From positions 1,612,001 to 1,676,000 of the forward strand of contig JAGUCH010000001.1 in the NCBI GenBank assembly GCA_019096065.1: a DNA stretch of 64,000 bases, read 5' to 3'. The notes beneath the pieces were generated by a model. That model was not told the DNA's origin. It ran no database searches and worked only from the letters and a program-made list of their open reading frames with translations. Below, one piece after another: positions 23,901-63,043 of the stretch. This DNA comes from Paracyclopina nana (Eukaryota; Arthropoda; Copepoda; Cyclopoida; Cyclopettidae). The first letter of the stretch is position 1; every line of letters starts with the position of its first letter. A program made the translations under genes and the position numbers.

Positions 23901-26144
23901 CTGATCGAGCCAACTTGGCTGCGGTCCTGCCTTCATGAATCAACGATACCTACGTACGCTATGGCTCACTTTCCAGATGCAATTTTTCTCTAGAAAATGC
24001 TGCCCCCACCATCACTAGGGTTTTACTAGGGTATAATATCCACTGAAGACTCTAGAAAGTTTCATTTATTGAGCCAGTTTTTAGTAGTGAGCGTATGACC
24101 TAGGCTAGGAGCCATCATCGATTCAAAATGAGTTTTACCTGGCCTTGGAAGGATATTTTTAAAAGGCATGATGCATTTTCAAATTTGTTAAAGGCTATTA
24201 AATTGAGGAAAAAGCCTACAGGATAAAGATTTATTTTAGTGGCTCATAGTCTAAGGCTGCAGTAGTTGTAATTTAGTAATGCTTGGAATATGAGCGCGCG
24301 TGACTAATTTATTTAAAGAAACCGGATGCAACAATTACATCTTGAATGGAGCCTAAACAACCACTTGAAATTGTATTTTGCAATATGTGTTGCCTTCTTC
24401 GAACCAAAATGTAGTTTTAACTCATTTTGCCGCTACTGGCTGCAAACAAAGCCGGCCAGCTGCTACAGTTTTTGAATTGACTCGTGACATTTGATAATTA
24501 TGAAATAGCCTAAGGAGCGATTTGAAGCGTTCAAAGCTTCATCCCCTTAATTTTTGGTATGGAGTACTTCACACAAGTAGCAAAACAAAGGCATTTTTCA
24601 GTAACGCAGAACGCACCACTAGCTCATATGGTGAGCTGAGTAGACATTATTTTAAGTGCACCCCTATAGCATTACATCATGAGGGTTGAAATGCCAGCTT
24701 TGTGTAATCCTTTGCTGTTTATATAATTATTATAATCATAATCATTCTGTAATCCAATATATCTTAAGGATTGGCACAAATCATTAAAAAAGAATTCACT
24801 CCTTACGGCCTATTGAAAAGCAGAGGAATTTGCTTTATTGGTAATTAAATACAGTGTAATATGAAACTTTAAGCGGTCGGCTATGAAAAGGAGCTTTGAA
24901 TTGATCGTACTAAGAATCTTAATTCTGCTTCACTAACTAAGGAGAATTCCGTTTTTTGCCACAATTGCCACTGCTGTGCCAAACTGTCAACACTTTCCAA
25001 TAATTAGACAGAGTTGAGGGGCGGAGCGCGGCATTTCTGTAGAAACCTTTTGATACAAATTTCAGCTATTTTCAATATTCCGAAAGTGAAATTTTAGGTG
25101 ATGGCTGCCAACGTTCAAGACTCAAAGCACTAATTTTTGTTTCATCCTACTTTTAGCTTTTTGTTGCTTGATTTGCCGCGTCATTCTCTTAAATAAGCCA
25201 AACGTTGCCTTATTGTGATGCGATAATTCACCGTTTAATTAATATGTACCAAGAGCCACTGTGCAGTGCTGTGCAAAAATAATCCGTTACAGTTACAAAA
25301 TGGCAAGTAAATTCATCATATGGCAAAAACCCTGGAAAGGTGGTGAAGGTTGTTTTCAGCTGACTCTTGCTGCACCAACGAAAAACCAGGAGAAAGGAAG
25401 ATGGCTGCATTATTATGGGTGTCTGAGGTCAGCCGGTCCAATAATCCTTTGTCCATGATAGTTTGATTTAAGCAAAGTTGCGTGGTGCAGCTGCTCGTTT
25501 TCATCCCTCATTTGAGACTAGCAAGGCAAATTACCAAGCATTCAGAAATGCCTTCAATGAATTAAAGGTGGAAACATTGCAGAATAGTTTGTACTGGCTC
25601 GGTTAGCAAAGTGTGAGGTAGGTAGTTCAGAAGCTGAAATCGACCATCGTTGAATGGCGGCTGGCGTGCCATGCTGCGCCTTAACAACTGAGAAATTCCT
25701 GCTTCACTTCAGTACACGTCCAGCTGAGCTCGACTCAACTACAAGTCTCACTTTTCCTGACCCAAATTGCTGAGGGACCGTCTACAGTGTTGGAGTGATT
25801 TCAACGATAGGTGTGCTATCAATTAGAAGGATACACTGAGAAGCAGTGGTGGTTCACTATGGTGTGTTCTGGTAGTGTTCTTCAGTGGCTAGCAACCCTC
25901 GTTTTCCCCTGTTAAGGTGAGTGAGTCTGAAGAAAATGCTAATTTTGTAGGTTGTAGAAAGTGGAACCTTTTTCCCAGCAAATAATCTTGGATTTCACTT
26001 TCATGCCCTTTTTTTGGCTTGCTGATCAGATACAACAGTCATGAGAGGTCAAGAAACTTTAGTAGTAATCCAATTTTCACTTTCAGCTTCTAGCTCTCAC
26101 AGCTGTTGAAATTACCAAATAGCATACATACTCACACACGCACC
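18000..26144. other. Long gene-free interval
   Basis: Between the RabBD gene and the Patched-related gene I see no supported gene. It contains the promoters of the two divergent genes somewhere, but I cannot place them. Open frames here are short, AT-rich and not linked by splice sites. Confidence 0.5.
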
Positions 26145-29100
26145 ATGGCTTGCTGCAAAAGCAAACATTTCGTGGACAAAACCTTGAGAAAATTCTTCTA
26201 CTGGCTGGGCTTCAACATTGGCCTTAGGCCGGGCTATTTTATCTTGGTTCCTATCTTGCTGACTGCCCTTTTGGCCACTGGTTTTCAACAAATGGACTAC
26301 AACTATGACCCAGAATATCTCTTTTCACCTTCCCATGGTATGGCCAAACATGAGCGGGCTACAGTGGAGAAATACTTCCCCACCAATTTCAGTGATTTCA
26401 GGGCATCCAGAATCACCCGTCCTGGCAAATTTGGCAGGGTCATTGTCACTGCCAGAGACGGGGGTTCAATGCTCAGGACTCACCTGTGGGATCAGTTGCT
26501 ATATTTAGACAAGGTAAGTTTAATTGCAGATCCTGGGGAAACCCATTTTGAAACTGATTCTGGGAAACCCAGGCTAATTTTAGCACCATGGTCCTAAAAT
26601 TAATTGTTCACAGGTGATCTACAATGTCACAGTGGAGCATGAAGGTCATCAACTGCACTATGCAGAGTTGTGTGCTCAATGGAACCAATACTGCTATGAC
26701 AATGAAATCCTGAGAATTGCTAGTGTCCTGCCTAGCATTGAGAGTGGGGAAATCAAGATGACCTACCCTTTCTTCTTTGACCCAGTCACATTTGAGTCAT
26801 ATGCTCTGCCCATCTTTTTTGGAGGCACCAAGCTCAATGAAGATCAAGTCACAGTGCAGTCAGTGGAGGCTGTCGGCCTCTCCTATTTTCTTGACGTCTC
26901 AGAAGATTGGCTAGTGAATGTGGGCGACCACTGGGAAAGGCAGTTTCTCATAGACATTGAAGCCAACGAGGAAGAGTTCTATCCTGACCTGATTGTGGGC
27001 ATGTTTGTCAGCAACACTCCTGCCTGGGAAATGGAAAAGTCGAAGTTGAGTGTGACCTTTTTGCTCTGCATCAATGTTGGACTTTTGGTGGTCTTCAGCT
27101 TTGTCTCTACCCTTATGGGAGATGCCGCCAAGTCAAAGCCTCTCGTTGGCTTCTCCGGCCTTTTCAGTGCTTGCTTGGCCACTTTGGCTGGCTTTGGATT
27201 CTGTTGCTACATCCAAGTGGAGTGGATCAGTTTAACCTTGGCTGCACCTTTTCTCCTCTTTGGAATTGGTTTTGATGACACTTTTGTGATGCTATCTGCA
27301 TGGAGAAGAACTCCCAGTCATTTATCAGTTCCAGAGAGAATGGGCAGAACTTATGAGGATGCCGGAGTCTCCATAACCTTCACAAGCTTAACCAACATTT
27401 GCAGGTATAAGAAAATAAAAAGCAACTTAACATTTCACAAGTGTTGAGTAAAAGCTAACTTTAGCTTTTAAATGTTTTGCCAATGGGCGTTTTAAGAGAA
27501 TTGCATTTTCATTTGCAGTTGTTTGGCAGGTGCAATGACACCTTTTCCATGCATCAAGATTTTTTGCATCTACACAGGAGTAGCAATGACTTTTACTTAT
27601 GTCTGGCATATCACAATGTTCGGAGGCTTTTTGGCCTTGGCAGGAAGGGCAGAGGCCAAAAACAAGCATGGCATGTTCGTCTGCCACACAGTCACTCCTA
27701 AGAGCTTGGCCAAGAACCGTTCCTGGTTCTACAGGGCCTTCATGACTGGAGGCCTCAACCCTGACGACCCCTTGAATCCAATTGACAACCAGGAGCATGC
27801 TGGAATGGCCTTTTTTCGAGATTACCTTGGCAACTGGCTCAACATTGGATGGGTTAAGGCTGTCATTTTGACTGTATTTGTCGGCTACCTCATTGCTGGC
27901 ATTTGGGGCGTGACTGAGATCAGGGAAGGCTTGGAGAAACGCAACACTGCCAACTATGACTCATACTCAGTGCTCTACTATGATTTGGACGACAGGTACT
28001 TCAAGGAGTATGCTTTCACCATCGGTGTTGTGATCTCAGGGCCTCATTTGGACTTTTCCAACCCTGACACCCAGAAGGAAATTGAAACCATCACTAAAGC
28101 CCTTGAGGACTCTGTGTACATCAATGCGAATTTCACCCAGAATTGGATGAGAGACTTTTTGGACTACGTGGATCGCAACAAAGGCTACTCTGACGTGCAT
28201 TTGCCAATTGCCTCTGAGGCCGAGTTTGCCAATACACTGAAGAACATATACCTTGCAGATTCGAATAATCCTGCAAGGCTGGATGTTGCATTCAGTGACG
28301 ATGGCTCCCGTGTGGATGCTGCGAGATTCCTTATTCAGGTAGGCCCACGATAAGTACCACTAAGTGCATTCAATTAATGTTTGTTGTGCGTAAAAACAGT
28401 TCCTCAATAGGCAACAATGCTCTTTAGCTGTTGCTGTTGACAAGGCGAAGCAAATGAATTATGGGTAATTGGTGTAGTACACAGTTATCCATGCACCCTT
28501 GTGCTTAATAATGAGCTCCTAAAATTAGGTCCACTTTATTGGTAGAGCTGTTTGACTTTATTTTGGGATTTCGAACCTGCTTATTAGCTATTTGAAATGT
28601 CACGGCACAAATTGTACAGCTAAAGAATCAAGCACCTTGACCTGCGAGCTGCAGCTGATCATTTAAGAGTTCTGCAGCATCTGATGGTAAAAATTGATGG
28701 CTTCAAGGTAGCCATGTTTGTGTGTAGAAAGTTGTATGTTACTAGTGGAACAGCATGAATAGTGTAGGGGCTGAAATTCATTCATTGCTTGTTGACCATA
28801 ATTCTGAAGGTCCTTTCAAGCAGTCTCATGGCTTGCATTTCGAGTCTACTGGGTGTATGTGGATACTAAACATTCAGTCAGACATGTTTTTGCCGCAATG
28901 CACAAATATTAAAAATCAAGATTTGCAGGTGGTCGCAGCCACCCTTTCTTTGCAGTTAAAGTGCTAACGGGTTGGCTGTTAATTGTGTTGTGCTCTGATT
29001 AATCTTGGAGTGGCATTGAGATACTATTTCTACCTGCACAAAACCCCATTTAACCTTGACTGGTAAAAATTGACTGAGAATCAATTCATTTTCTTCTACG

Positions 29101-32095
29101 ACTATTTCTATTGGTCGCCCTTGTACAACATCCTAAGAGTCCAAGTGGACGATTTGTAGTTTATTTTATGCCCTGTGGCAAATGTTGATGGCCAACTTTC
29201 TAGTCTACTGCTGGCTAGCATAAAGATTATGTATTATACTACAGCTATGAAAAGCAGCTTCTATCTTGGGGTATCCAAATAGGCTAATTCTACACCTGTT
29301 TCTAGTGACCACCTGTGCATGAAATTCGAAAAATTTCCTTACTTTGAAGCCTCCATGCAGCGTAACTTTATGAATGTTCAAGGGTCATTTTCATAGTACG
29401 AATTTGCACATCTGGCATTCAATTTACGGTTTACGCTTACGCAACTGAAGCCTTAGATCACAAAATAGCTTGATACGATACATTTGATTATTTCTTGGTG
29501 CTTTTTTTTTTCTTTGCTAAAAGTACAAAAGTTAGTCACCATTGCGTGACCAATGACAATGAGTTAGCCCCTTTTGAAGGTCGAATTTGTTGCATTTCCA
29601 ATGGCAACAAATCTGACCTTTTGTTGAGCCGCAATTTTCTGCGTTGGATTTCTTGGAAGCAAAATTGCATCCTGGTTCCTCAAACATTGACATTGCACAA
29701 TAACCTCATTCGTGTTGCAATCACACGCGCTGCTGAGTGCGACGCGTTAAAAACCGCAAAATTTCACCATCTGCACACACACACGTGCTTTTATGTAAGT
29801 CACAAAAAATAGCTAAATGCACCTTGATGACCTTAGGAAAAGGTGATTTTTTTCGCTCAAGCCTGGCAAAACAATAAAGTAGTCGTTTTTAGCGTTCCAC
29901 CACATATATGCACTGCAAACAATGCAACCACCGCCTTTATTTTTTCCCTTTTTTATGGGAGAAAAGCAGAGCTTGATTCAGTTCTTATTTTTCAGGGCCA
30001 CCACATCAACAACTCGCTGGTTGAACAACTCATGGTTGCTGAATTGCGTGAAATTTGCGCGAGATACAGCACTGACGAGCTGCAAGTCACTGTGTTCCAG
30101 CCATTTTTCATCTACATCGATCAGTACTTGGCCATTTTGCCGCAGACACTGCAAACCATTTTTGTCACTGCTGGCATCATGGTGATCATCTCCCTGCTGC
30201 TGATACCCAACTTCATGTGTGCTCTGTGGGTCTCTTTCTCCATTGTGTCCATTGAAATTGGAGTGGTTGGATACATGGCTTGGTGGGGCATTCGTTTGGA
30301 CGGCGTTGCGCTCATCAATTTGATCATGTGCATTGGCTTCTCGGTGGACTTTTCAGCGCACATTTGCTACCACTATTTGACGGCTGTGTCAGAAGATGAA
30401 GATAGTGTGGTGGTGGAAAATAACATCAGCCTGACAGGGAGACCAGAGGACCGAATCAAGGCCAGCTTGTATGCCCTGGGAATTCCTATACTCCAGGTAC
30501 AGCAAATTGCAATACATTAGCTAATCTATCACATGTCAATGACAATTTCTCCAATTAAATGATCATGTTTCTCGCAGGGAGCTTCCTCCACAATTATTGG
30601 TGTGCTTGGCCTGGCCTTCTCACCTTCCTACTTGTTTGTGACATTTTTCAAGATGATCTTTTTGGTCATCATGCTGGGCACGTTTCATGGCATGGTTTTG
30701 CTCCCTGTGCTGCTGTCCCTGATGGGTCCAGGATCGTGCACGAATTGGTCCAAAATCGACAAGGAGAAAGCCATCAGTAGCAAGTCGACCCGCTCTTCCG
30801 GACTCTCGACTCCCACCTTGAATGCCATTTCTTGCCACAAGAAGGGCAGTAGTATTGACCACGACAATGGCTACACCATCAACTTGGCCTATGTTGCTCG
30901 TGACGAGCCCTCTCAATTTGGACCGTATCAGTATCATCAGCAGAGCAGTTTTCCTTACCAAAGCTACGCAATGCAACGCTCTTTGCCTTGTCATCCCGAA
31001 GTCAACACAAGGTACCAAAAAAATGCATATTTAGCAAGAATTATTTTAAAAAGGCAATATTTATTTTGCAGTCCCGAACAGTCATCGCCTGCCACGTCTA
31101 CCTCGTCTTCAAGTGGCGGCCAGAGGCTGCGAAAAGGCCACATAGTTCAGCAGCAGCAAAGGCAGCCGCACCATCATCGAAAGCATTATCATCATCATCA
31201 TCGGCATCATCACCACCAAGTGCATGTGCATCCTGGTGGCCATGTCAACGGACGTCAAATGGTGGCAGCTTTAAACGTGAATGGCTACAACACTTCCACT
31301 CCGGATCAGCATCGGTTAAAGAAAACGGCGCCAGTAACGAAAACGAGAGCTGCTGCTGCTGAGACGAAGCTGCAATCAGAGCATGACCGGCAATTGGACC
31401 TTCACTTAGCGGCCATATCCAGAATTCAACAAAGGTATGCTACACCAAAGAAAAGTCCAGATTTGTCCCATGCGTAGTAGGAAGCGTTTCGAGTACTTCT
31501 CGAAAAGTTCACGTACGTACTCCAACTTTTGCCAATTTCATGGTAGCTTGCCCACAACAACAGCAGCAGCAACAACATATTAATTTGATAAGTGGCAAAA
31601 GTGGACCCGTTCGGATTTTAGTTCCTTTTTGCAATTTTTTTCGCAATACGCTGCAGTCACTTTCATGACTATTTCAGGGTCACGCAGCTCTATTTGTATA
31701 GTGTATAGGATACATTTTTTGAATATAAATGTAGAAACTTCAGCGAGCCTTGAGTTGGGATCAAGTTGCAAAAGTGTCGATTTATTGATGCGTTGGCCAA
31801 TCATGCGGATCATGAAAGTAATTTCACATTTTGCAGGTCCAGTCAGAAAACGTCATGCAACCACCATAAAAAAGTGGGAAGATCCAGGAGTCACAGGCCA
31901 CGACTGACTAGTGAGGCCGTGGTCTCCACCATCCCTGAAGGCGTCAGGAAGGGGCTGCCTGTCATGTCCCCCTCCAACTTTGCTGAGAAGCCAGCCCTGA
32001 GGAAACACCACAGTTTCCCCTACGAGACATTCAACAACGAAACGAGCTACTCCTCAGATGACTCGATTTCGCAAAATCAACCTCCTCCTCGATAA
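26145..32095 (+). CDS. Ptr: Patched-related transmembrane protein (Ptr/PTCHD-like)
   Basis: Seven exons, all phases consistent: 26145-26513, 26614-27404, 27519-28338, 29996-30496, 30578-31011, 31072-31434, 31837-32095, giving 1178 residues. The ATG sits in a good context (CACCATGG). A transmembrane helix at about 31-47 is followed by a large extracellular loop. A sterol-sensing-like bundle from about 270 contains the RND signature GIGFDDTFVML (341-351), and the second bundle contains GFSVDFSAH. This is the two-fold RND permease plan of Patched-domain proteins, which move sterols or lipids at membranes; length fits Drosophila Ptr. The C-terminal tail after the last helix is long, Ser-rich and has a histidine-rich run in exon 6. 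Intron 3 (28339-29995) is by far the largest. Paralogy within the PTCHD group cannot be settled here. Confidence 0.92.
28339..29995 (+). other. Large intron of the Patched-related gene
   Basis: A 1657-nt GT-AG intron joining phase-0 exons (FLIQ to GHHINNS). It contains no supported coding sequence; a 105-codon frame at 29495-29812 has no motif. Confidence 0.8.
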
Positions 32096-32231
32096 AATCG
32101 GCATTTTTATCCAACCTATAATAAGGCATTTCGTTGATGAAAATGATTCCTTGTTTCCATTGCTGTGTGTAGATGTATTCGATATGTAAAATTGTAGTTA
32201 AGAGCTTTACTCTTATTCGCGTTCGCGCAAT

Positions 32232-32237
32232 AATAAA
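32232..32237 (+). terminator. Polyadenylation signal of the Patched-related gene
   Basis: AATAAA about 140 nt after the stop codon at 32093-32095; it is the first canonical hexamer downstream. Confidence 0.7.
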
Positions 32238-33006
32238 TTCACCTGTGCATTGTGTCTACTAATCACTGTTATGTAAAGCTTCCGATCCTTTGCGACGGGA
32301 AATGACGCATTTGTGTGACGCAATCACGTTCTCATGACTTACGCGCGAGACTTATGTATTTTATGCGTCGAATCTTTTTCCTGCGAATAGTACGATGATG
32401 TAGTGCAATTTTTTTTGGCTGATAATTATCTTGGAACAATGCTGGTCAACAATTGAACATTGGCTCGATCCCAACTTAGCCAGTTTTCACAACAACTGAC
32501 TTGCGTAGTAGCACATATTTGCCAAAAGAGTTTTGGGAAAAAAGTAAATTGGCCTCCTTTATGTACGGCTTCCTGTGTTAATAAGTCTAGGTTTATTATT
32601 GTTCTTTTTTAGGACCAGCACTCATGGCATTAAATTTGAATAAATGGCCACCGTTTTGGCTGGTATCAAAAATTGAGGAAAAGTCGCATAAAATTGGAGG
32701 ATATGTGGAGTAGCACTTCCTTATTTTCAATAAAAATCCGCTTTTTGTGCACTTCTGTCATGATGATGGCTAATCTAATCATACGATGAGCAATTAGCTT
32801 TTTGTGATTCTCATGACTCGAGAACGTACTTAATAAGTGTGTATGTAAAATGAAATTGCGCATGACCTTTGAATTGTAAAGTCATGAATTCATTGAAAGT
32901 CAGTTAAGGGCTAGAATTCGAATTGCAGAAATTACCTTACAATTGCATCGTGAAGTAGGAGAAATAATTAGGCCACCATGACATCAGTCAATTGTTGGGA
33001 CTCACC
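32238..33006. other. Intergenic region upstream of the epimerase gene
   Basis: Separates the poly(A) signal of the Patched-related gene from the epimerase start codon. It should hold the epimerase promoter and 5' UTR, but I cannot identify core promoter elements with confidence. Confidence 0.5.
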
Positions 33007-35157
33007 ATGTCCACAGGCTTTAGCATGGGGGAGAAATGTCCAGGTTGCTCAAGCATGAGCACTTGCCAAAGGCCAAATGGAGGCTGTTGCAATAATAACA
33101 CTTCCAGCTTCTACCAAGTGTTTGGAACGCCTACAGGTAATAATAGCAATTGTCGAGCATGATTCTGCAATTGATTGAGGAATTAGCGCAGTCACCAAAA
33201 TCTACTATTTCGCCCATTTTGGGTCAAAAGCCATCATTACTGCACAATGGACCAATAATATATTAAAAAGTTTTATTTAGCAGCTAAGAGGGAAGTGGAC
33301 AAAATTATCCCTCAGTGTAACGAAAAAAATTAACGGTCCTCAATAATCGAGGATTTCTGGACAGTTATTATTTTGGGGCTTTATTCATTTCAGATCCTCC
33401 TCCTCCATTTAACTCAAGGAGTCCAATAATTCCTTCAGCTCCAACATCTTGCTACCCGTTTAGCAATCCTATTATTGCCACTTGCAGAAGAGCCAATAAC
33501 GAGGATGCAGGCAGACGAAAATTCAAATGTGGCAAATGCGCATGCAACATCAGCCAATTTCTGACCCTTGTTGCCTCCCTTTTCACCATGGTCGTTTTGA
33601 TCATGGTCTACTTTGTCCCATTGTTCAACAATAACAACAATGAGCTTGGCATGGCTCCTCCAAGACTTGATACTGCCTCGTGGCTCCAGCAAATTTCCCT
33701 CAATTCATGGCTGCCAGACTATTTCAACGTATGGTCCAGCCAAAGTCCAGTGATACACATAAATCAGACTAAAATCATCGGTATTGCAAAATTTATTAAG
33801 CAGTCAAAATTGCAATTGAACTGCTTGTATCATTTAGAGCTCCGAAGTTGGACGTCAAATGATAAAAGGTCCTTTAGAAGGTTCAAAATGACCAACAATT
33901 TGGGAATATCTGTGGAGCTTTGCTCTCTTGGAGCCACAGTGACATCATTCATAGTACCTGATAAGCAAGGCAAGTTTAATGATGTTGTGCTCGGCTTTGA
34001 CAATGCTCCTGATTATCTTGATGATGCTAATCCCTACATGGGTGCAACTGTTGGAAGAGTTGGCAACAGGTAAGCATTCATAAATATACATACGCGTATC
34101 ATGTTGCACATCTTGCATCTATTTAATAGAATTGCGCGCGGACAATTCTCCATTGATAATGTCACTTACACTCTGGCACAAAATAATGGCAACAATCATC
34201 TTCACGGTGGGATAGTCGTAAGCAGATCCTCTTTTGTGGTGACATTGCAGCCAACCTTCAATTTTTTCCTCAGGGCTTTGATGCAGTGAATTGGCAAGCG
34301 TTGGTCGATCACGATTCCGGATCCATTACTTTTTCATACCTCAGTTATGATGGAGAGGAAGGCTACCCCGGTGACATGCTGGTTTTTGCCAAATTCACCC
34401 TGAGCCCAATTAGCGGAGCACTAAATATTGAATACTCTGCGACAGTTTCCAAAAAATCTCCCATCAACATAGTCAATCACATGTACTTCAACTTGGCTGG
34501 TCATTCAGCAGGTCTCTCTCAACTTTTTGTATCCTATTTTTCAATTATGATTGAGAGCTTTATTATGCTGCAGGAAAACAGGAAATGCTTCAACACACTA
34601 TTCAGATCAATGCTGAATACTACACACCTGTGGATGCTGAACTCATTCCCACTGGGGAAATTGAATCAGTATCCAATACAGAATTCGACCTCAGAGTTCC
34701 AACTCTTCTCAAAGAGGTTGTAGGCAGTAAGTTCACACTAAGTTCACTCAGCTTAATTTTAGCATTAGAAGTGATCAAATTTCCTGCTTCAGAAACCAGA
34801 GCTGGACAAATGTCAGGTTATGACACCAACTTTGTCGTCTGGCCCACCAATATGGGAAATGCCGGTCAAAATCGGTTCGTAGCCAGATCCGTGCATGAGA
34901 AAAGTGGAAGGACCCTGGAGGTCTACTCAAACCAACCAGGAGTGCAATTTTACACGGGTAATTTTTTGCCTACATGGGAAGAGTCCAGTCTAATAGGGAA
35001 GCATGAAGCCATGTATGAGCAGCATGGGGCATTTTGCCTTGAAACCCAAATGTATCCGGATGCCATCAATCAGCAAGAAAGATTTGGGCTCAAGGCAATT
35101 TTGAGCCCTGGAGAAATTTACTACCACAATGTGATTTATAGTTTTGGTTTGCTCTAA
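33007..35157 (+). CDS. Membrane-anchored aldose 1-epimerase (galactose mutarotase)
   Basis: Seven exons in continuous frame: 33007-33136, 33394-33780, 33838-34069, 34130-34217, 34274-34511, 34574-34726, 34793-35157, giving 530 residues. The C-terminal part from about residue 173 is a full mutarotase, which interconverts alpha and beta anomers of aldoses. Visible landmarks are VVLGFD, GATVGRVGNRIARG, NNHLHGG, NHMYFNLAG (catalytic His), GYDTNF and GAFCLETQ (catalytic Glu). Soluble family members are about 340 residues. The extra 170 residues include a cysteine-rich N-terminus, a likely transmembrane helix at about 99-121 and a linker, predicting a type II membrane protein with the enzyme outside the cytosol (inference). 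Intron 2 (33781-33837) and intron 6 (34727-34792) are multiples of three without stops, so retained forms would stay in frame. Confidence 0.9.
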
Positions 35158-35323
35158 AGACGTCTGACTACAATTATTCAAATTCGCAGAGAGCACCTGT
35201 AAAAATATCACAACTTCTTACTCATAATGTTTATGGGGATTTTGCATTTTTAGTTGAGATTGAGACTCGTAGAAAAATGCTTGTAAAAACAATTCTACAT
35301 TATTCAAAATGTGTTGCTGGATC

Positions 35324-35329
35324 AATAAA
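35324..35329 (+). terminator. Polyadenylation signal of the epimerase gene
   Basis: AATAAA 167 nt after the stop codon. Only about 530 bases separate it from the exportin-7 start codon. Confidence 0.75.
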
Positions 35330-35858
35330 TGTCATTAATTCTAAAAATTGACCATTCAAAGATATTTTCATTGTTGAAAGTGGCGTTAGCCTGTTTGAAT
35401 TTGCCGCCAGCTTTTTTAAAACATCGGAAATACAGTAGCGCGCTCAAGCATACTCGTCACTCAGCAATACTTGTTCTCTTTAACTACAACGCCCCTACAA
35501 GTTAGCACAAATCAATAAAGCGTTGCTATAATTTACATTTCAGACTAGCGTGAAGGCTTTATGGAATTTAATGCCCTTTTACGGAGTAGCTTAAAACGAA
35601 ACAAACTTTTAGGCCTAAATTAAAGGGCGATTCCCTATTTAATTGCAAGGAGATATTGAATTTCTCGACTTTGTCGCTAGCTTAAAGGCTTTTCCTGAGA
35701 TATTTTGGCCTTTAAAGCTTGGAAACATCAACAGCCAAGTTGATATTTTCTTTACGCTGCGCAGAACTGTTAAAAGGAGGACCAAGTTCAGGTCTTCATT
35801 TCCACCAAATTCTCATGAGCCGAGCGTTGACTTTAAAATCTGAGCTGCGTTCTACATC
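35330..35858 (+). promoter_or_regulatory. Compact intergenic region holding the exportin-7 promoter and 5' UTR
   Basis: This short interval lies between the epimerase poly(A) signal and the exportin-7 ATG (35859) and must contain the exportin-7 promoter. No TATA box is obvious. Open frames in it (for example 35643-35843) have no motif. Confidence 0.5.
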
Positions 35859-38800
35859 ATGGCATTAGAGGAAGTCACAATTACGGTAAGCTTCTTTTTC
35901 CCACCTCGAGGAATTTCCCCTCATTTCCGTCGCTTTTCAGGAAGTCCAACGCTTGGAGGTTCTTTGCAAGCAACTGTATGAAAGTCAAGATGCCTCCGCC
36001 AGGACCGAGGCGGAAAAGGCTCTGGTCAGTTTTCAAAACTCGGGCGACAGGTAACTTTTTTTACGGCCATTTCCGAAAGCCTGCTTTAATGACCTCGCTC
36101 GTTTCAGCTTGAACAAGTGTCAAATGCTTTTGGATCGACAAGACTCGCCATACTCACAATTGTTGGCCACGACCACGTTAACCAAGCTGATTTCAAGGAC
36201 TGCTCAAGTTCTGTCGCTTCAGCAACGCATTGATATTCGTGAGTAAACAGAGGACGGGTTTTCCGCCAAATCGCTACTTTCGCCTTGAAGCATTGCCGTT
36301 TGACGAACTTTTTTTCCCGCAGGAAACTACGTCTTGACTTACCTCTACAACCAGCCAAAGTTGGCTCAATTTGTGGTTCAAGGACTTGTCACTCTCTTCG
36401 CAAGGATAACAAACTTGGGTTGGTTTGATTCCAAAGAAGACGAGTTTGTTTTCAGAAATGTCATCGGCGATGTTACAAAGTTCCTCCAAGTAGGACAGCT
36501 TTCTTGTTTCCTATGATTAAGTTGATTTCATAAACTTCTCCTTAGGGATCTGCCGATCATTGCATGATTGGAGTTCAGCTATTATCCCAATTGACGTGTG
36601 AAATGAACCAGGTAACGTTGTTTTATCATTTTGCATTATTTTGAGTTGATGAAATTGGTTCTCGTCTAGATCAGCGAAGTCGATGCCAACAGAAGCTTGA
36701 CCAAGCACCGCAAAATTGCATCTTCCTTCAGGGACACCCAACTTTTCGAGATTTTTCAACTTTCTTGCACTCTCTTGCGAACGGCCTACGAGAATCGAAC
36801 CAGCCTCAACTTCAACGACGAGTCTCAGGTATATAATGAAAGAGACACTTTAATTTTGGGAAGTTAACGTATTCATTCTAGCATGAGCTGTTAAAGCAAC
36901 TGCTTCGGTTGGCCCACAATTGCCTCACTTTCGATTTTATCGGAACTTCCACTGACGAGTCCTCGGACGACCTTTGCACGGTGCAAATCCCAACGAGTTG
37001 GCGTCCAGCCTTCCTGGAGTTCTCCACGCTGCAGCTCTTCTTCGACCTCTACTCGGCCCTTCCCTCAACTCTTAGTCCTTTGAGCTTGTCATGTCTGGTC
37101 CAAATCGCATCTGTGCGTCGTTCCCTCTTCAACAATGCTGAGAGGGGAAAGTTCTTGAACCAACTGGTGGCTGGAGTGCGAAAGATTTTGCAGAATCCTT
37201 CTGGTCTGACTGATCCGGACAACTACCACGAATTTTGTCGTCTTCTGGCAAGACTGAAGTCAAACTACCAATTGGGAGAGCTGGTGATGGTCGATCAGTA
37301 CCCAGAGTCGATCCAACTCATGGCCACCTTCACGGTGGAGTCGTTGCAAATGTGGCAATTTGGGCCCAACTCCATTCACTACTTGTTGAGCCTTTGGCAG
37401 CGAATGGTGGCCTCGGTGCCCTATGTGAAGGCCACAGAGCCTCACTTGCTCGAGACGTACACGCCAGAAGTTACTCAAGCCTACATTCGATCCAGGCTCG
37501 AGTCTGTGGCTGTTGTCATCAGTGATGGCCTTGAGGATCCTTTGGATGATGTTGGCATGGTCACTCAGCAGTTGGACCAAATCTCAGTCATTGGAAGGTA
37601 TGATGACTATACATTTTTATAAATTCAATAGTCATGACGCCAATTTTTGGTCAGGTGTGAGTATGGAAAAACGTGCAGCTTGCTAGTTCAGTTGTTTGAT
37701 CAAGCTGCACAAGCCTACCAAGAGATGATCTCGAACATGAACACCTCGAAGATCGAGGTCACGATCCAGGAAGGCCGCTTGACCTGGCTGGTCTACATTA
37801 TTGGTGCAGCTGTCGGAGGTCGAGTTTCTTTCAACAGCAATGACGAACATGATGCCATGGATGGAGAGCTAGTCTGCCGAGTTTTGCAGCTCATGAATCT
37901 TACTGATACTCGACTCTCTCAAGTAAGACTCAAAATCAGCTCAATGGAATAACTTTCTCATTCGCTGGCCTTTTTTTTGAAGGGCAAAACTTTGTGCCCG
38001 ACCTACGATTGATCAGAAAAAGGTTTTATTTTCATGTATTCGGTTTTGCAGGCTGGCTGTGAAAAGCTCGAATTGGCATTGCTCAGTTTCTTCGAACAGT
38101 TCCGTAAGATTTATGTGGGGGATCAAGTCCAGAAAACGTCCAAAGTCTATCGGAGGCTGTCAGAAGTGCTCGGTCTCAACGATGAATCCATGGTGTTATC
38201 AGTCATCATACGTAAAATGTGAGTGCTTTCCCTTTTGATTTTGTTTCAGCTAGACCTGCTATATGATTATCTTTCCAGAATCACCAATCTTAAGTATTGG
38301 GGCGGATCTGAAACGATCATCTCGAAAACGTTGCAACTACTTAGTGATCTCAGTGTCGGCTACGGCACCGTACGAAAACTGGTTAAACTGGACGAAGTCA
38401 ACTTCCTGCTTTCCCATCACACTGCCGAGCATTATCCCTTCCTTGGAGTTGGCGTGTCAGTGACTGAAATGCGTTGCAGGTCCATGTTCTACACATCACT
38501 CGGCCGCCTGCTGATGGTCGACCTCGGCGAGGACGAGGACAAATTTGATGCATTCATGGTCCCGTTGACCCAGGCGTTTGAGAACCTCGGTGGCGTTTTG
38601 TTGAACTCGCAGAATAGTAACTACAACTCGGAGGATGTGCGGAAAACCGTGATCGGCCTCGCGCGGGACCTCCGTGGCCTTGCTTATGCATTCAACACGA
38701 AAACCTCATACATGATGCTGTTTGACTGGATCTACCCTGCCTACACTCCGGTAAGTTGAAAGTAATCTTTTTCTACAGCTCACTCAGCGCAACACAAGTG

Positions 38801-40749
38801 TGCAAATCTAAATACCTTTTTTACGGCGGGGCGTTTATGCAAATGTTAAGTTAGAATTTCAGGGTTGATTTTGCAAGTTTTGCGTTTGCGCTAACAGCCA
38901 CTCGTAAATTGGTAAAATCTCAAAAATTGGCCTCAGAGCTTTGGTGGTGTTGATTCAACTCGTACCTTTCAAAGGAATATTTTTCGAGAAAAGCTACTAA
39001 ATCAACAAATGTGAACCAAGACCATATCTTTATCATGATTCACATAGGTAATCATGGATTCACATAGACCTTGAATATGAGGAATTTTTCAATGCCAATT
39101 AAAAATTTTTTTGTCTCTACGAGATAATCGGTGGTTAGGCTTAAATGCACTATAATACTATACATACATGCGTAATCACATCCCACTATACATAGGTATA
39201 TGTATATAATTTTAGGTTCTTCAACGAGCTGTCGAAATTTGGTACCAAGATCCTCAAGTGACCACTCCGGTGCTTAAGCTTTTCGCCGAATTGGTGCAAA
39301 ACCGGTCCCAACGATTGCAGTTTGACGTCTCGTCGCCCAATGGAATTTTGCTGTTTCGCGAAGCCTCAAAAATCATTTGCACTTACGGGAGCCGGATACT
39401 GGGAGTCACAGTGGCCAAAGAGCAAATGTATCCTCTGAAGCTCAAGGGCATCAGCATTTGCTTCTCCATGCTCAAGGCTGCCCTTTGCGGCTCCTACGTG
39501 AACTTTGGCGTTTTCAGACTCTATGGAGACGATGCTTTGGACAATGCGCTTAACTCCTTTGTCAAATTGCTGCTTTCCATACCTCAATCGGATCTCTTGG
39601 TGAGCTCCTCCTAATTAATCAACTATGGCCAGCATTGATTTTGATGTTTCAGGACTATCCAAAATTGTCCCAAACTTACTACGTGCTGCTGGAGTGCTTG
39701 GCTCAAGACCACATGAGCTTTTTGGCCACCATGGAGCCCCAGGTGTTCATGTACATCTTGTCATCCATTTCGGAAGGGTTGACGGCCCTAGGTGGGAACC
39801 TCAATTACTTTACAGGTGCTTTACAGAAACTGTGTCAGCCTTGTCAGTTGTTAACCTACAGTAGATGTTACTACCATTTATATTCTTTTTTATTTTTGAG
39901 TGCTGTTCCACATTTTCTGTTTGACCCTGAGAAAAAATGGCCATTTTGCCATGATGCATCATAGCAAAACGGCCATAAAACTTACTCTTCTCGCATGTCG
40001 TTTCTTTTCACTTGCTTTGAAAATCCTCGTTGCTAAACTCGAGCGAAATTTCCTTCTCTTTGTAAAAAAAGATTATTTCTTTTTAGATACCATGGTTTGC
40101 ACGGGCTGCTGTGCCACTTTGGACCACATAGTCACTCATTTATTCAAGCAAATGTCCATGAAAGGTGAGCTTTGATTCGAATGGAATGGTTCAGTGCATT
40201 CATTTCAAACTTGAAGATTTCATAGGTAAAGTGCGACGAGGTCAAACGCTGCCGGAAAATGACGCTTTAGTTCAGGTGATCAAGATGCATCCGGAGATTT
40301 TGCAGCAAATGCTCTCCACTGTGTTAAACATCATTATGTTCGAAGACTGCAGAAACCAATGGTCCATGTCGAGGCCTCTTCTTGGGCTCATATTGCTGAA
40401 CGAGGATTACTTCCAAAGCCTTCGCGACCAAGTGAGCCTTTTCATTTTTACAGTTTGGTCTCTGTCTTAATTTTTAATTTTATTCCAGATAATTCAGTCT
40501 CAACCCGCATCGAAGCAATCCAGTATGGCAACTTGGTTCAAAAATCTAATGGAAGGCGTTGAACGCAACTTGCTGACTAAAAACAGGGATAAGTAAGTTT
40601 TCGTAGGAATCAGTTGAATATTTGTGTAACTTACAATTTTTCCATATAGGTTCACTCAAAATTTGTCCGTTTTCCGTCGTGACATCAACGATTCGTTAAA
40701 AGGTCCCAATGTGACCACGACAACAGTCAATGATATGATGACTTCGTAA
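35859..40749 (+). CDS. Xpo7: Exportin-7 (RanBP16), complete
   Basis: Sixteen exons, all junction phases consistent: 35859-35885, 35941-36050, 36108-36238, 36323-36489, 36546-36611, 36670-36828, 36882-37597, 37655-37922, 38052-38218, 38279-38750, 39216-39599, 39653-39791, 40087-40164, 40226-40431, 40489-40592, 40650-40749. The product is 1097 residues, close to vertebrate XPO7. It aligns throughout with the exportin-7/RanBP16 family, with near-invariant stretches such as [40 protein letters not shown] and [14 protein letters not shown]. The N-terminal part is the importin-beta-type RanGTP-binding region; the rest is HEAT-repeat solenoid. It exports (and in vertebrates also imports) cargo through the nuclear pore under RanGTP control. 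The first exon encodes only nine residues. Confidence 0.97.
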
Positions 40750-40955
40750 TAAGCGAAAATAATCAAGATGGCCAATTATTCAAACGCGAAGAAGAAGATT
40801 TGTTGATCCTTCAATAATGGCTGTGATAATGAACGCCCCGAAAAAAAGCCTGTAGTAGCCGAACAACAAAACTTGCTCTGCTTCGAAAAAAGATCATCCA
40901 GCTTCATCATCGTCAACGTGAACACACTATTTAGTAACTAATTTACCCTTACTAT

Positions 40956-40961
40956 TTTATT
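40956..40961 (-). terminator. Polyadenylation signal of the eight-cysteine repeat gene
   Basis: TTTATT on the plus strand reads AATAAA on the minus strand, about 45 nt past the minus-strand stop at 41006. The exportin-7 gene ends tail-to-tail with it at 40749. Confidence 0.65.
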
Positions 40962-41005: not shown

Positions 41006-43219
41006 TCAAAAGAACTTGAACTCGTCCTCTACTAAGTGCCCTGATTTCAGCCCCTTTTTCTTGCTGCTGCTCCTTTTGGCCTTTGCACTGCTGCTGCTCT
41101 TCTTCCTTTCAAACTTCTTAGTTTTGATGGTCAATTTTTCGAATTTACGCTCAGCTTTCATCGCGCCTCGAAAATCATCTGAAGCCTTCAAATTTGATTT
41201 TTCTTTATCATTGTCTGAATTTTCCGTGGAGCTTTTAGTCGGATTGTCGTGGTTATCTTGTAAGCTTATCTCTTGTTCTGTAGAAGTGTCAGGTGTTTCA
41301 GTCATGTTCACCTCACTCATAATTTCATCAGCGGTGTAATCTTTGTCTGTGGCAGCTTGGTCAGCTTCTGAGCCTGAAAGAAAGATAGGACTTGATATAA
41401 GATAATTATTGAGAATAGACTTGATTCTCACTGTTCAGTTGGGTGACTTCATCAAAGACCACAGTTTCGTCCTTGAATTTCGGGTGGACAACTACGCCTT
41501 TCACCTGCCCATTGGCATAGTCCTCATCGTATTTCACCTGGATTTCGCCAAACTCCTGGCCCACATCATCTTTGTCGAAATGACACTTGGCACTCAAAGT
41601 GCAAATGCAGTATTGATTTTGGCACTGCGTTTTCGTCTGGCATTGGAAATGGCCAAAGAAATCCTCTCCGCAAGTTCCGGACCTTGCAGGCTCGCAACCT
41701 TTCTCGCAGCTCTTTTCGCTGTCAACTTGATATTTGATCTCGCTCTCCTTCAAGGAATCGGACACCGTAATTGTATTTTTGCTCGCCTCGCCTGTTATTT
41801 CAGCAGGACGCAATTTTGGCACAGTGGCCAGTTTCTTCCTTTGGCAAGTCATGATGAGCGTGCACAGGCATTTTTTGGACTTGCAACTCACACTGACCTG
41901 TGGTTAAATTACATAACAATATTTAATTATGCTCCGGAGTTCCTACTTGGCATTTGAATCCGAATTTGCAGCCATTCTTGAGCATGTCATTGCTGCAGAA
42001 AGAAATGCACTTTTCTTGCGTGGTTCCAAACTTGATTGTGGTTCGGCCTCCGGACGAAATTGTGCTGACCACATTTTGGATCTTTTCCATCGTCTCCGTT
42101 TCATTGGTCGAAGCCTGCATCATATCCTCATCCTCAGGAGCTTCAACATAATCGGCAATAATCTGTTTATCCTGGTTGATTCTGCACTCAAAAGCAACCG
42201 AGCACGCGCAATCCGTTTGATTGCAAGCTCCCGAATGCACCTTCACAATAGGAATTTATCCTCAATATAATAAAATGAGTACCATATACATACTCTGCAA
42301 CCTCCGCCATATTTGCACTTCTTCACTTCCGGATTTGTGTCGCAAAACCTGGTGCAACTTGAAGAATCTTTGGCCCTGAAGGACAGAGCGTACTGACCAC
42401 CAGCATTTATCACTTGCAGTGCACTTTTCGCTCTCCTCCTATCAAACTCTGCGTTTGCCGCAGCCTTAAAATAGCAGTAATAGTCCAGGTCGCATTTGCA
42501 TTTCCCAGTTTCGCAACCGTGACGAGACTGCAGAGAAGCAAAATAGTGAGTTCATTAGGGCAATATTTTTATACATTTAAAAAAATGGAATACTTGGCAT
42601 GCAAATCCGTAAGTGCAAGCATCGTCTGGAATAGCAGAACACCGCAGTGGGCATGACTCTCCAATAAAATCGGTCTCTTTTGAAGTGTTGCCTCCGTGGG
42701 CCATTTTCCTTATGGACTTTTTCAGCGCCATGACTTCCGGGTTGCTGCCAAATACTTCCAAATCAGTAGAATAATCCAAGGACTACGTTCCAAAATGATG
42801 CTCTGTATTAGTGCTTTTCTTGTGCAATTTCAACTCACTTCGGACAAGGCTGTGCTATTTACCGTCGACGATAAAGCGGACGACGATTCGCAGAAAAAGC
42901 TGACTTTGCAGGAGCATATCAGCTTTTCTGAGCAGTCGTGCTTGGCCTTGCATAGCACATCTCGGTTTTTGCAATGTTTCTCCGTCTCCTGAACCATGCG
43001 AGTGTCATGGCATTTTTGCACGCAGTCATTTTTGGTCAGATTGAATTCGGCTTCAATGAAGGCATTGCCCAAGTCGACCGTGCCTATAGAACGCTAAATA
43101 TTGAGCTCTCGCAGATTTCCAGCGCTCCTGTTAATTGATTGTTGCTTACTTTGCGCGGATGTTATTAGAAGGGAGATGAGCGCAAGTTTGGCCAACAACA
43201 GTGAGAAGGCATAAATCAT
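41006..43219 (-). CDS. Secreted protein with five eight-cysteine modules (unrecognised)
   Basis: Seven minus-strand exons join in frame: 43219-43150, 43083-42839, 42782-42594, 42527-42294, 42240-41947, 41897-41432, 41373-41006, giving 621 residues. Residues 1-22 form a typical signal peptide. Five modules (about 44-88, 149-186, 226-265, 324-362, 408-449) share the spacing C-x3-C-x7-12-C-x5-9-C-x5-6-C-x4-5-C-x-C-x5-C, enough for four disulfides each. Linkers before modules 2-4 share a helical stretch and a GG. In modules 2, 3 and 4 a phase-0 intron falls right after the fourth cysteine. The C-terminal 120 residues are acidic then Lys/Ser-rich. I recognise no named family; an extracellular or matrix role is inference from the signal peptide and cysteines only. 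Confidence 0.8.
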
Positions 43220-43375: not shown

Positions 43376-44070
43376 GGGCGCCATCAATAACGACGACACT
43401 ATTGCGAGAGTTGCATTTGCGTCGACACTTTTGCGAGAGATGTTTTAATGTCGACATTTTTTTTACTACATGATGTTTTTACATCGACACTTTTGTGAGA
43501 GTTGCTTTTGTGTCGAAATACCAATGTAATATTAGCATAGACACATCATGCATTAATGTCGACACCTCATGCTTCTATGTCGACAAACCATGCTTTAGCG
43601 TAGACAGAATTTGGAGCTATTTTGGTAAATTGTAAAATCATTTTTCAGATTCTGACTTTGGACTCAGTCTTTTGGTAACAAAATCCATTCTGCTCCATTA
43701 AAAAAGTCTTGTTTTTTCATTATTTCTCTGAGATATTTTTTCCCAAAATATCAGTTATAATAAAAAAGTAAACCTAGCCTAAGATTTTACTTCCTCTATG
43801 AAAAAAATGCTAAAACAGTCAAATATGCAGTAACCTATTATAATGCTGATGTGTGTTGACAAAAAAATATCTTTTGTCGACGCTAAGGCGTCCGGTGTCG
43901 ACATTAAAAGAACATGTTCAAACCTGTCGACTTTATTGTATGCCCGGATGTCGAGATTAAAACAACTATGACAAAAGTGTCGTCTTAAGTGAATGCCCGA
44001 TGTCGACGCTAATGCGACTCACTCATTCGACGTAAAAACAACTCTAAATTCGACGTTATTGTGCTCACCC
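43376..44070. mobile_element. 695-bp non-autonomous element with 9-bp TSD
   Basis: It is flanked by perfect 9-bp direct repeats AGGCAAAAC (43367-43375 and 44071-44079). The left terminus is GGGCGCCATCAATAACG and the right terminus, on the other strand, GGGTGAGCACAATAACG. Subterminal regions carry repeated units of about 33 bp around GTCGACA-TTTTGYGAGAG on the left and inverted relatives (GTCGACATTAAAA, GTCGACGCTAA) on the right. There is no coding capacity. The left terminus matches the GGGTGCCATTACTAA end of the element at 5511-7265, so the two belong to one terminus family. Confidence 0.85.
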
Positions 44071-44855: not shown

Positions 44856-47805
44856 TCAAGTGAAGAATGAGTCAAATGGGACAGCAATCAAATACTTTTC
44901 GTCGACAATGCCTTTGGCAATGCAATCACGTTTTGGAATCACCACTTCTGATTCGTGATCTACACCAACCCATTTGAAAACGCCAATCAATGACCAATTC
45001 AGGTCTGGGGCTTGAGGGGTGGCGAAGCATTCAGTCATGAAGTGCTTTCCAATGTAGTTCTCGCCAGTAACATGCGAGATGCGGAAGAACTGTCGATTCT
45101 TGGTATAAACAATGTCATCGCAGTGACGAGAGATCTCCACAGTGCTGAATGTTACTCGGTTCTCGCATGAGTGAATCTTATTGCTCCTCTTGAAAACCTT
45201 ACGCATAATTTGCTTTGGCACTGACCGTGTTCCAGGTTTTAGGTTTCTCTTGACATGGCTGAGGTCACCTTCGAATCCAAGTGCGCTTATCTGTGGCAGT
45301 CGATGAAGCTGGCGAGCGATGTGGAGGTGGAAAAAGGTGTGGATATTCCACGAGCAATTGACCAGCCCAAAGTTGTCATGAAAAATTTCATAGAAATTGC
45401 ACTGCAGCTCGATGATGCTGCAGCGACTGTCAATCCATTGGAACATGTCATCGTCAAAGAGGCAAGCTCGCACAATGTAGCAAAAGGTATACCAAGTTTC
45501 AACGTAGCCAGTGTACAGTTCTCCTGAGAAAGCTTCGCCAAAAGCTAAGAAGCCGCACACAACAATAGACATGATCTCTTGCGTCTTGTACTGGACAAAG
45601 TTGTCATTCATTGTTCTCGTTCTCCTATTGAACTCGCGAGGAAGAGCAATGTCTTGCCATCTTGCATCGAACTTGTGTAGCAAGCCCATTTGGACGATAG
45701 TGTGCTTTTTCGACTTATACTTTTCAGAGAATCCCATCATTGAACGAATGAGCTGCTTAGCACAACCACTGATATTGTGCATTGGTTCCAAGCACAAGTC
45801 TTTGATGACGCTGAAACCATCAAGGAGCACCAATGGAGTGGCTGCTTTCATCCCAAAAAGCTCATCTGGTGAGAAGCTGGCGATATCGTCACGCTGAATC
45901 CTCTTGGCCATTTCTTTGTACCAGAAATCAGTTCTGAGTCTGGCTGCCTTAGTCTCGGGCCCGAAAACCTGTCGATGCTGATAATTTTGCCCTTTGGCAA
46001 CACAAAAGAGGCAGGAGTACATTCCAGAGTGACTTTTAATCCCTGCTAGCTCAGCTCGAACGGGCGCATCACCAACAACTCGCCCAATTTTGAAGTCGTT
46101 CTCGCCAAAACTTTGAATGATCATTTCTACAATCGTATTAATATCGAGGCAGCTCTCCTTTGCATAAATGTGCATGCCCATTGTGAAGACCTCATTGCAA
46201 GGTGGAATCTTAATCGAAATGACATCAAGCTTGTAAGATCCAGACTTCGACCACGGCAGTCCATCAACAAACATGATGATGCTACGTGAGAGTTTCGTTC
46301 CAGCTTCATGGTTGGCCTTAGCATGCTCATAGATGTCGGCAATGGTGCAGTAGGCGTACTCACTAATTCTCTTAAAGTTCTTGCGAGGATAAGCTTTTTG
46401 AGGGAACTTTTTTTCACCTTTCAATTTGATGACTTCTCCAGTTGTCATGTTCTTGATTGCGTAGTCCATCAGTACTTTTGGTGCTTTCTCATCAGCCTCT
46501 CGTTTGTACTTATCGATGTGAGGCATATCACGAGAACTCATCTCATTTTGGGCTCTGGTCAGATCATAGAACAGCTGCACAGCCTTGTCTGAAGTACATG
46601 TACGAATGGCAATTGAATCAAATAAGTCAAACAATATTTTGTTCCTTTCAGGAATGGAGAGATGAGAAGTGCGACGAGAAATAGCCCTAAAAGTCTTGTA
46701 GTTAAGTCGCAAAGCTCCAGTAGCATCTAAGCTCCCATCCACTTCCAGTTCCTCAGGTGGTAGAGCTTCACCAGGTCCAACGTCATCATTTGGTTCTTGC
46801 CAGTTCCTGTTGCGAACAATGGCAACGTCATCATCACTGTCCTCATTGTCAGCCAGCATTCCTTGAGTTTCAGGTCTGTCCCCATTGGGCCCAGCCATAG
46901 TCATTTGGTTGACAGCGACAGCTTCCATCTGAGTGTCCTCTTCATCAGACAACTCCTCTTCATCCAAAGGTTCGAGGTATGTTTCATCTGCTGAGTCCAC
47001 TTCAGATGACGGCAAGTTATAGTCATAACCAGGAGGATCTCCTGACGAGAACTCTTCGTCATCATCAATGACAGTTTTGACACGGTCATTGTCAGGAAGC
47101 AACAACTTGCCATCAAATGTGATTCCTTCAGTGTCAGGAATCACAGCAACTGAAGCCTCAAGGACTCTCTTGGCTGACCGTTCAGCACGCCTTTTTGCTG
47201 CCAGAGGCAAACGACGTACAGGATCTTGCGATGACCCGATGACAACTTGGCGACTCTCGTGCTCCTTGCGTACATCCTTGAGATGCTCCTAATGGCGTTA
47301 ATTGCATTCCAGCTCCTTGACTGGTGCTTGGCTGTGGCTCAGCAGCCTCGTCAGAATCAGATGCGAGGATTGCGCGAGATGAAGCCTCGGTAATTCGGCT
47401 TCGACGAAGTGAAGCGGGGACAGGAGCTGTCACATCAACATCACTCTCGCTGCTGGAGTCAGTCAGCATGAATGTTTGCAGGGCATTCGTAATTTCAGTC
47501 TGCATCGCATGTATCTCGCCTTCTTGTCGAAACAAATTGACGACTGGTTCATCGTGATCACTGCAAATGACAACAAACGCGCTTGAGTAGGAGGCAAGTT
47601 AGAGCCAATGAATGTGCAATAGTTACCCTTTGTCATTATCACGCAAGATTTGATCCACACGTCTGGCCTCTACATGGATCGTTGATTTCACAGAATCCAA
47701 TGAATTGTTGATCCGATGGAGCATTCGAGTTGTTCTCCTGTACACAACCTTGCTGAATTGTGATCGCGTCTTCGGTTGCTTGCTCTTCTTGCGTTTTGAA
47801 GTCAT
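44856..47805 (-). CDS. tnp2-type (CACTA/EnSpm-like) DDE transposase, frame broken near 47290
   Basis: Exon 1 (47805-47627) starts at ATG in MTSKRKKSKQPKTRS; exon 2 begins at 47560 and joins in frame. The main 800-codon frame occupies 47289-44856. It carries landmarks of the tnp2/Transposase_21 family: MFVDGLPWSKSG (first Asp), GDAPVRAELAGIKSHSG (second Asp) followed by a CxxC, LEPMHNISG, and GFEGDLSHVKRNLKPG (candidate catalytic Glu). The N-terminal 160 residues are very acidic. It would cut and paste the surrounding element by binding its ends. Exon 2 and the main frame are offset at about 47290; no credible intron bridges them, so a one-base change is likely. Without that, a start inside the main frame is the fallback. 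Confidence 0.82.
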
Positions 47806-53501: not shown

Positions 53502-53549
53502 GGAAAAATGCGGTGTTTAGTGTGATAAAGAAAATGTGAAAGCAGTGCT

Positions 53550-63043
<9,494 letters not shown>

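Follow-up and report, generated by a model that had tools for sequence, protein, structure and literature searches.

Introduction

For secreted cysteine-rich repeat proteins (SCREPs), about sixty thousand candidates have been mined, and in the account given in PMC6262176 98.4% of the refined set matched an InterPro feature. A second system to be considered is the CS-alpha-beta superfamily, in which, according to the description in PMC5116183, the cysteines C3, C4, C8 and C9 of the array form the cysteine-stabilised-helix (CSH) motif.

The gene described here, which probably belongs to an animal, was found in a 64-kb stretch of DNA, referred to as the window. With SCREPs as characterized in PMC6262176 it shares tandem cysteine-rich domains defined by one cysteine pattern, here five modules, and a chain that is probably secreted. 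In contrast to what is reported there, no Pfam family above cut-off was obtained for the modules or the whole protein, and NCBIfam listed none for the five modules at E up to 1. Our best overall reading, to which we assign a probability of about 45%, is a secreted, multivalent protein of cysteine-rich repeats whose module is uncatalogued and whose array has grown by exon duplication.

Gene structure and genomic context

The spliced gene model lies on the minus strand from 43219 to 41006 and comprises seven exons coding for 621 residues through to the stop. All six introns showed GT-AG borders and lengths of 49-66 nt, with a joint GC of 0.33 compared to a GC3 of 0.535 for the coding sequence. 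In the translated model, exon 1 (43150..43219) contains the start codon and a hydrophobic segment resembling a signal peptide. The first 22 residues are hydrophobic and residues 2-25 were modelled as a helix; judged from this signal-like start, the protein is probably secreted. Exon 2 (42839..43083) carries all of module 1 (C1-C8 at 43024-42890) without an internal intron. Since two in-frame donors occur, placing the exon end at 42839 or 42863, the presence of eight residues between modules 1 and 2 is uncertain, and one of the seven N-x-S/T sites of the protein falls into them.

Exon 3 (42594..42782) consists of a GG-bearing linker and C1-C4 of module 2, and is followed by intron 3 (42528..42593). 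Exons 4 (42294..42527) and 5 (41947..42240) each contain a GG-bearing linker, flanked by the latter half of module 2 and the initial half of module 3 in the first case and by the corresponding halves of modules 3 and 4 in the second; they are followed by introns 4 (42241..42293) and 5 (41898..41946), respectively. Exon 6 (41432..41897) comprises the latter half of module 4, a linker lacking GG, the undivided module 5 (C1-C8 at 41708-41583) and a hairpin predicted with low confidence in the whole-protein model. Exon 7 (41006..41373) encodes an acidic stretch, a basic tail rich in Lys and Ser (last 51 residues with a pI of 10.4) and the stop. A bare match to the hexamer AATAAA, resembling a poly(A) signal, is located on the same strand about 45 nt 3' of the coding end (40956..40961). 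Altogether, as far as the sequence model allows, the gene appears complete and ordinary.

Several neighbouring features were observed in the window. On the plus strand, exons of a Patched/sterol-sensing gene, an aldose 1-epimerase gene and an exportin-7-like gene follow in this order at 26094-40750, with Pfam matches to some of the exons only and outer limits set by eye. The gene described here is apparently convergent with the exportin-7-like gene, of which one exon was recognized by Pfam and the remainder by eye. Directly upstream of the gene, at 43384-44025, an imperfect foldback element is present, whose inverted 44-nt arms show 70-80% complementarity and whose shorter arms reach up to 93%. 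It contains many TGTCGACA palindromes, and 12 of the 16 matches to GTCGACA in the window fall within 43421-44007; after shuffling, the entire window contained 3.8 on average. An open frame of 810 residues from stop to stop at 44859-47288 on the minus strand, which may be transposase-like, gave no Pfam match at E <= 0.01. Further away, protein-kinase exons lie at 53529-57815 on the plus strand; the Pfam Pkinase match (E 1.8e-12) covers 53529-54203, while the remaining exons and the Ste20-like label were assigned by eye.

Cysteine modules

All 40 cysteines of the protein fall into the five modules, eight in each. The gaps between successive cysteines are 3,12,6,5,5,1,5 in module 1, 3,7,5,5,4,1,5 in module 2, 3,8,5,6,4,1,5 in module 3, 3,8,5,5,4,1,5 in module 4 and 3,7,9,5,4,1,5 in module 5. 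Thus, the first (3), sixth (1) and seventh (5) gaps are constant throughout, while the second varies from 7 to 12, the third from 5 to 9, the fourth from 5 to 6 and the fifth from 4 to 5. These values match exactly the ranges of the spacing C-x3-C-x7-12-C-x5-9-C-x5-6-C-x4-5-C-x-C-x5-C, which an earlier note on this DNA had proposed for the five modules. Residues 24-460 contain five matches to a loosened form of the pattern. When this region was shuffled 20,000 times, one copy occurred in 16 of the shuffles, two copies in one and more in none. In a six-frame translation of the window, the half pattern C-x3..6-C-x-C-x5-C gave five matches, all of them inside the gene. The cysteine-free stretches between C8 of one module and C1 of the next comprise 39-60 residues for modules 2-5, and no cysteine precedes module 1.

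With the cysteines held fixed, the module cores of the pairs M2-M4 (z 3.0), M3-M4 (z 3.1) and M4-M5 (z 3.0) were clearly alike, and M2-M3 weakly so (z 2.0). For the other six of the ten pairs, resemblance outside the cysteines was not clear (z -0.9 to 1.2); these are the four pairs involving module 1 (-0.4 to 1.2), M2-M5 (0.9) and M3-M5 (-0.9). Module 1 is accordingly tied to the others by its cysteine spacing.

Shared introns and probable exon duplication

The earlier note had assigned phase-0 introns immediately after the fourth cysteine to modules 2, 3 and 4. The presence of these introns in the three modules, their phase and their absence from modules 1 and 5 were confirmed, while the exact position had to be corrected by one codon: in all three cases one further codon separates the fourth cysteine from the intron (Cys-Gln|, Cys-Arg| and Cys-Gln|; offset +3 nt). 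From this position it follows that exons 4 and 5 each consist of a half-module, a linker and a half-module. When six introns were placed at random, three modules shared one offset in 4 of 200,000 simulations. One place and one phase in three modules are therefore improbable by chance, which suggests that the exons were copied.

A comparison of the exons, again with fixed cysteines, showed exons 4 and 5 to be alike (z 3.1, equally good in 5 of 1000 shuffles), with values of z 2.4 for exons 3-4, 2.8 for 3-5, 1.7 for 4-6 and 0.4 for 5-6. Among the ten pairs of linkers, only those preceding modules 3 and 4 were clearly similar (z 4.7, 0 of 400 shuffles), and the remaining nine (z -1.0 to 1.9) were not clearly above shuffling. 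The linker features described earlier as shared therefore hold in part, with GG confined to the linkers before modules 2, 3 and 4 and similarity clear for a single pair. Nevertheless, the resemblance of exons 4 and 5 together with that of the linkers preceding modules 3 and 4 supports a tandem duplication of the exon, and in combination with the coincidence of the introns it backs the exon duplication that had been proposed.

It is quite conceivable, with the odds somewhat against it, that the introns were instead gained, either inserted independently or once in an ancestor of modules 2-4, without any loss in modules 1 and 5. Independent insertion would have to hit the same place and phase, which the simulations make improbable. 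The usual proto-splice form is MAG|R, and the codons flanking the introns (CAA, AGA and CAA) differ from it. Neither of these observations counts against a single gain. Similarity between cores is highest in the pairs M2-M4, M3-M4 and M4-M5 and lowest for M1, so that a single gain in the lineage of modules 2-4 is about as simple as a loss. Modules 1 and 5 may accordingly never have had the intron, with the later loss suggested in the earlier note as the alternative.

Predicted fold

An AlphaFold (AF2) model of module 4, calculated with the five modules as alignment rows, reached a mean pLDDT of 78.6. It comprises helices at residues 2-14, 30-37 and 40-45 and strands at 21-28, 50-59 and 62-71, with C1 and C2 placed in the helix 30-37 and C6, C7 and C8 in the last strand. 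In this model, C4 is residue 52 and the intron cuts inside the second predicted strand (50-59). A single-sequence model of the whole protein showed the order strand-helix-strand-strand in four of the five modules (1, 3, 4 and 5) at low confidence; its mean pLDDT was 45.7, and much of modules 3 and 5 remained below 50. For module 2, this order of elements was absent from the whole-protein model.

The module is thus predicted to carry the signature of the cysteine-stabilised helix, with C-x3-C located in a helix and C-x-C in the final strand. By spacing alone, this signature was found in all five modules. Most likely, two bonds would join the helix cysteines to those of C-x-C, and the remaining four would supply two more. 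Since all five late cysteines could share one face, judging by the strand register, other pairings would fit too.

Compared to the CS-alpha-beta superfamily as described in PMC5116183, the module shows the standard C-x3-C and C-x-C spacings, the predicted succession of a strand, a helix and two strands, and a last cysteine in the place of array C10. Unlike the array given there, it has no cysteine ahead of C-x3-C, i.e. no equivalent of array C2, which is bonded to C6 in that description. The third bond completing the CS-alpha-beta (defensin) fold can therefore not form. Further differences are the three middle cysteines and the occurrence of five copies of the module in a single chain of 621 residues.

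Relation to known families

The earlier statement that no named domain has this spacing held for Pfam, NCBIfam and the PDB sequences as searched, apart from a sub-threshold match of EB (PF01683) in one of the five modules. PHROGs gave no match for the five modules, module 4 alone matched no PDB sequence, and the whole protein gave a single PDB match at E 0.62. The profile built from the five modules, by which the earlier note had intended its claim to be checked, returned five matches against the PDB, headed by the CCCH zinc finger 6nzl at E 0.00023, whose two stretches taken alone gave E 0.56 and 0.59; further matches included tristetraprolin (E 0.025) and two others up to 0.11.

Although the first of these values is low, the CCCH zinc finger was rejected as the family of the module. 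The pattern of this finger is C-x8-C-x5-C-x3-H. The spacing C-x8-C-x5-C is indeed present at C2-C4 of modules 3 and 4, and module 2 reads C-x7-C-x5-C-x3-H, which would suit a C-x7 form. However, the match spans three of the eight cysteines, none of the five modules fits the pattern exactly, modules 3-5 lack His after C4-x3, module 1 has this His but gaps of 12 and 6, and the protein begins with a signal-like segment. The tandem CCCH model of Pfam reached E 2.3 at best, on module 2.

A further explanation would be that the module belongs to a known small disulfide family, such as EB, EGF/knottin or CS-alpha-beta, and has diverged past recognition by sequence profiles. We regard this as possible, with the odds clearly against it. 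EB, which is likewise cysteine-rich, matched residues 20-49 of the 57 of module 2 at E 0.068, and elsewhere in the same genome eleven EB matches were found at E <= 1, four of them above the Pfam cut-off. The helix C-x3-C and the last-strand C-x-C would moreover correspond to the four cysteines of the CSH motif as presented in PMC5116183. On the other hand, the EB match amounts to 13.7 bits compared to a cut-off of 24.3 and is partial, and Pfam listed EB neither for the other four modules nor for the whole protein. CS-alpha-beta families were absent from the listing at a maximum E of 10, although beyond roughly 0.1 most matches are removed by the filters of HMMER. A structure comparison gave no clear fold relative.

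If the module is not such a relative, a joint reading would be a new type of disulfide fold, a cysteine-stabilised helix without the strand-one cysteine of defensins, that has spread via circularly permuted exons. Other bonds may then replace the missing one, and the copied exon may never have been equal to the domain. As a whole, this reading is speculative and rather unlikely.

Proposed role

Judged from its architecture, the protein is likely a secreted multivalent scaffold or binder whose tail serves as a matrix anchor. Helical or flexible linkers would join five small disulfide-linked modules, which are succeeded by the charged tail. Each module would run from a strand through the helix with C-x3-C into a hairpin, the last strand bearing C-x-C-x5-C; as in the CSH motif, the helix cysteines would pair with those of C-x-C, and two further bonds would come from the other four. 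The repeats could bind or hold extracellular partners at high avidity, while the basic Lys/Ser tail could anchor the protein to a polyanionic matrix. The charge of the tail and the seven N-x-S/T sites would agree with this reading. The array would have grown as phase 0-0 exons containing a half-module, a linker and a half-module were duplicated in tandem.

Less probably, the protein could be a structural secretion, for example of eggshell, cuticle, cement or matrix, that is cross-linked via its cysteines and does not act as a binding protein. The five cysteine-rich repeats, the low-complexity Lys/Ser tail and the lack of a known binding domain would agree with such a product. Yet each module contains an even set of eight cysteines at near-fixed spacing, which suggests internal bonds. 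Structural genes of this kind are often clustered, whereas four protein queries revealed no second locus in the gene's own 92-Mb genome at the thresholds used, at which distant paralogues may escape. Very unlikely is a precursor cleaved between the modules into separate defensin-like peptides. The CSH-like cysteine signature and the basic pairs following modules 1, 2 and 4 would suit it, but the linker before module 4 contains no basic pair, GG is kept in the linkers preceding modules 2-4, and modules 2 and 5 with their own linkers are acidic (pI 5.2 and 5.3).

Significance

Since SCREPs have already been described as a large class in the account of PMC6262176, the gene itself is ordinary, and no large open question is changed by it. 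If anything about it is new, it would be the module and the permuted exon unit. Should the module really be uncatalogued, a new domain family could be seeded from it, and the intron in the second predicted strand would allow the spread of repeats to be tested cleanly, on a small scale, in a case where exon borders cut the folded unit rather than separate units.
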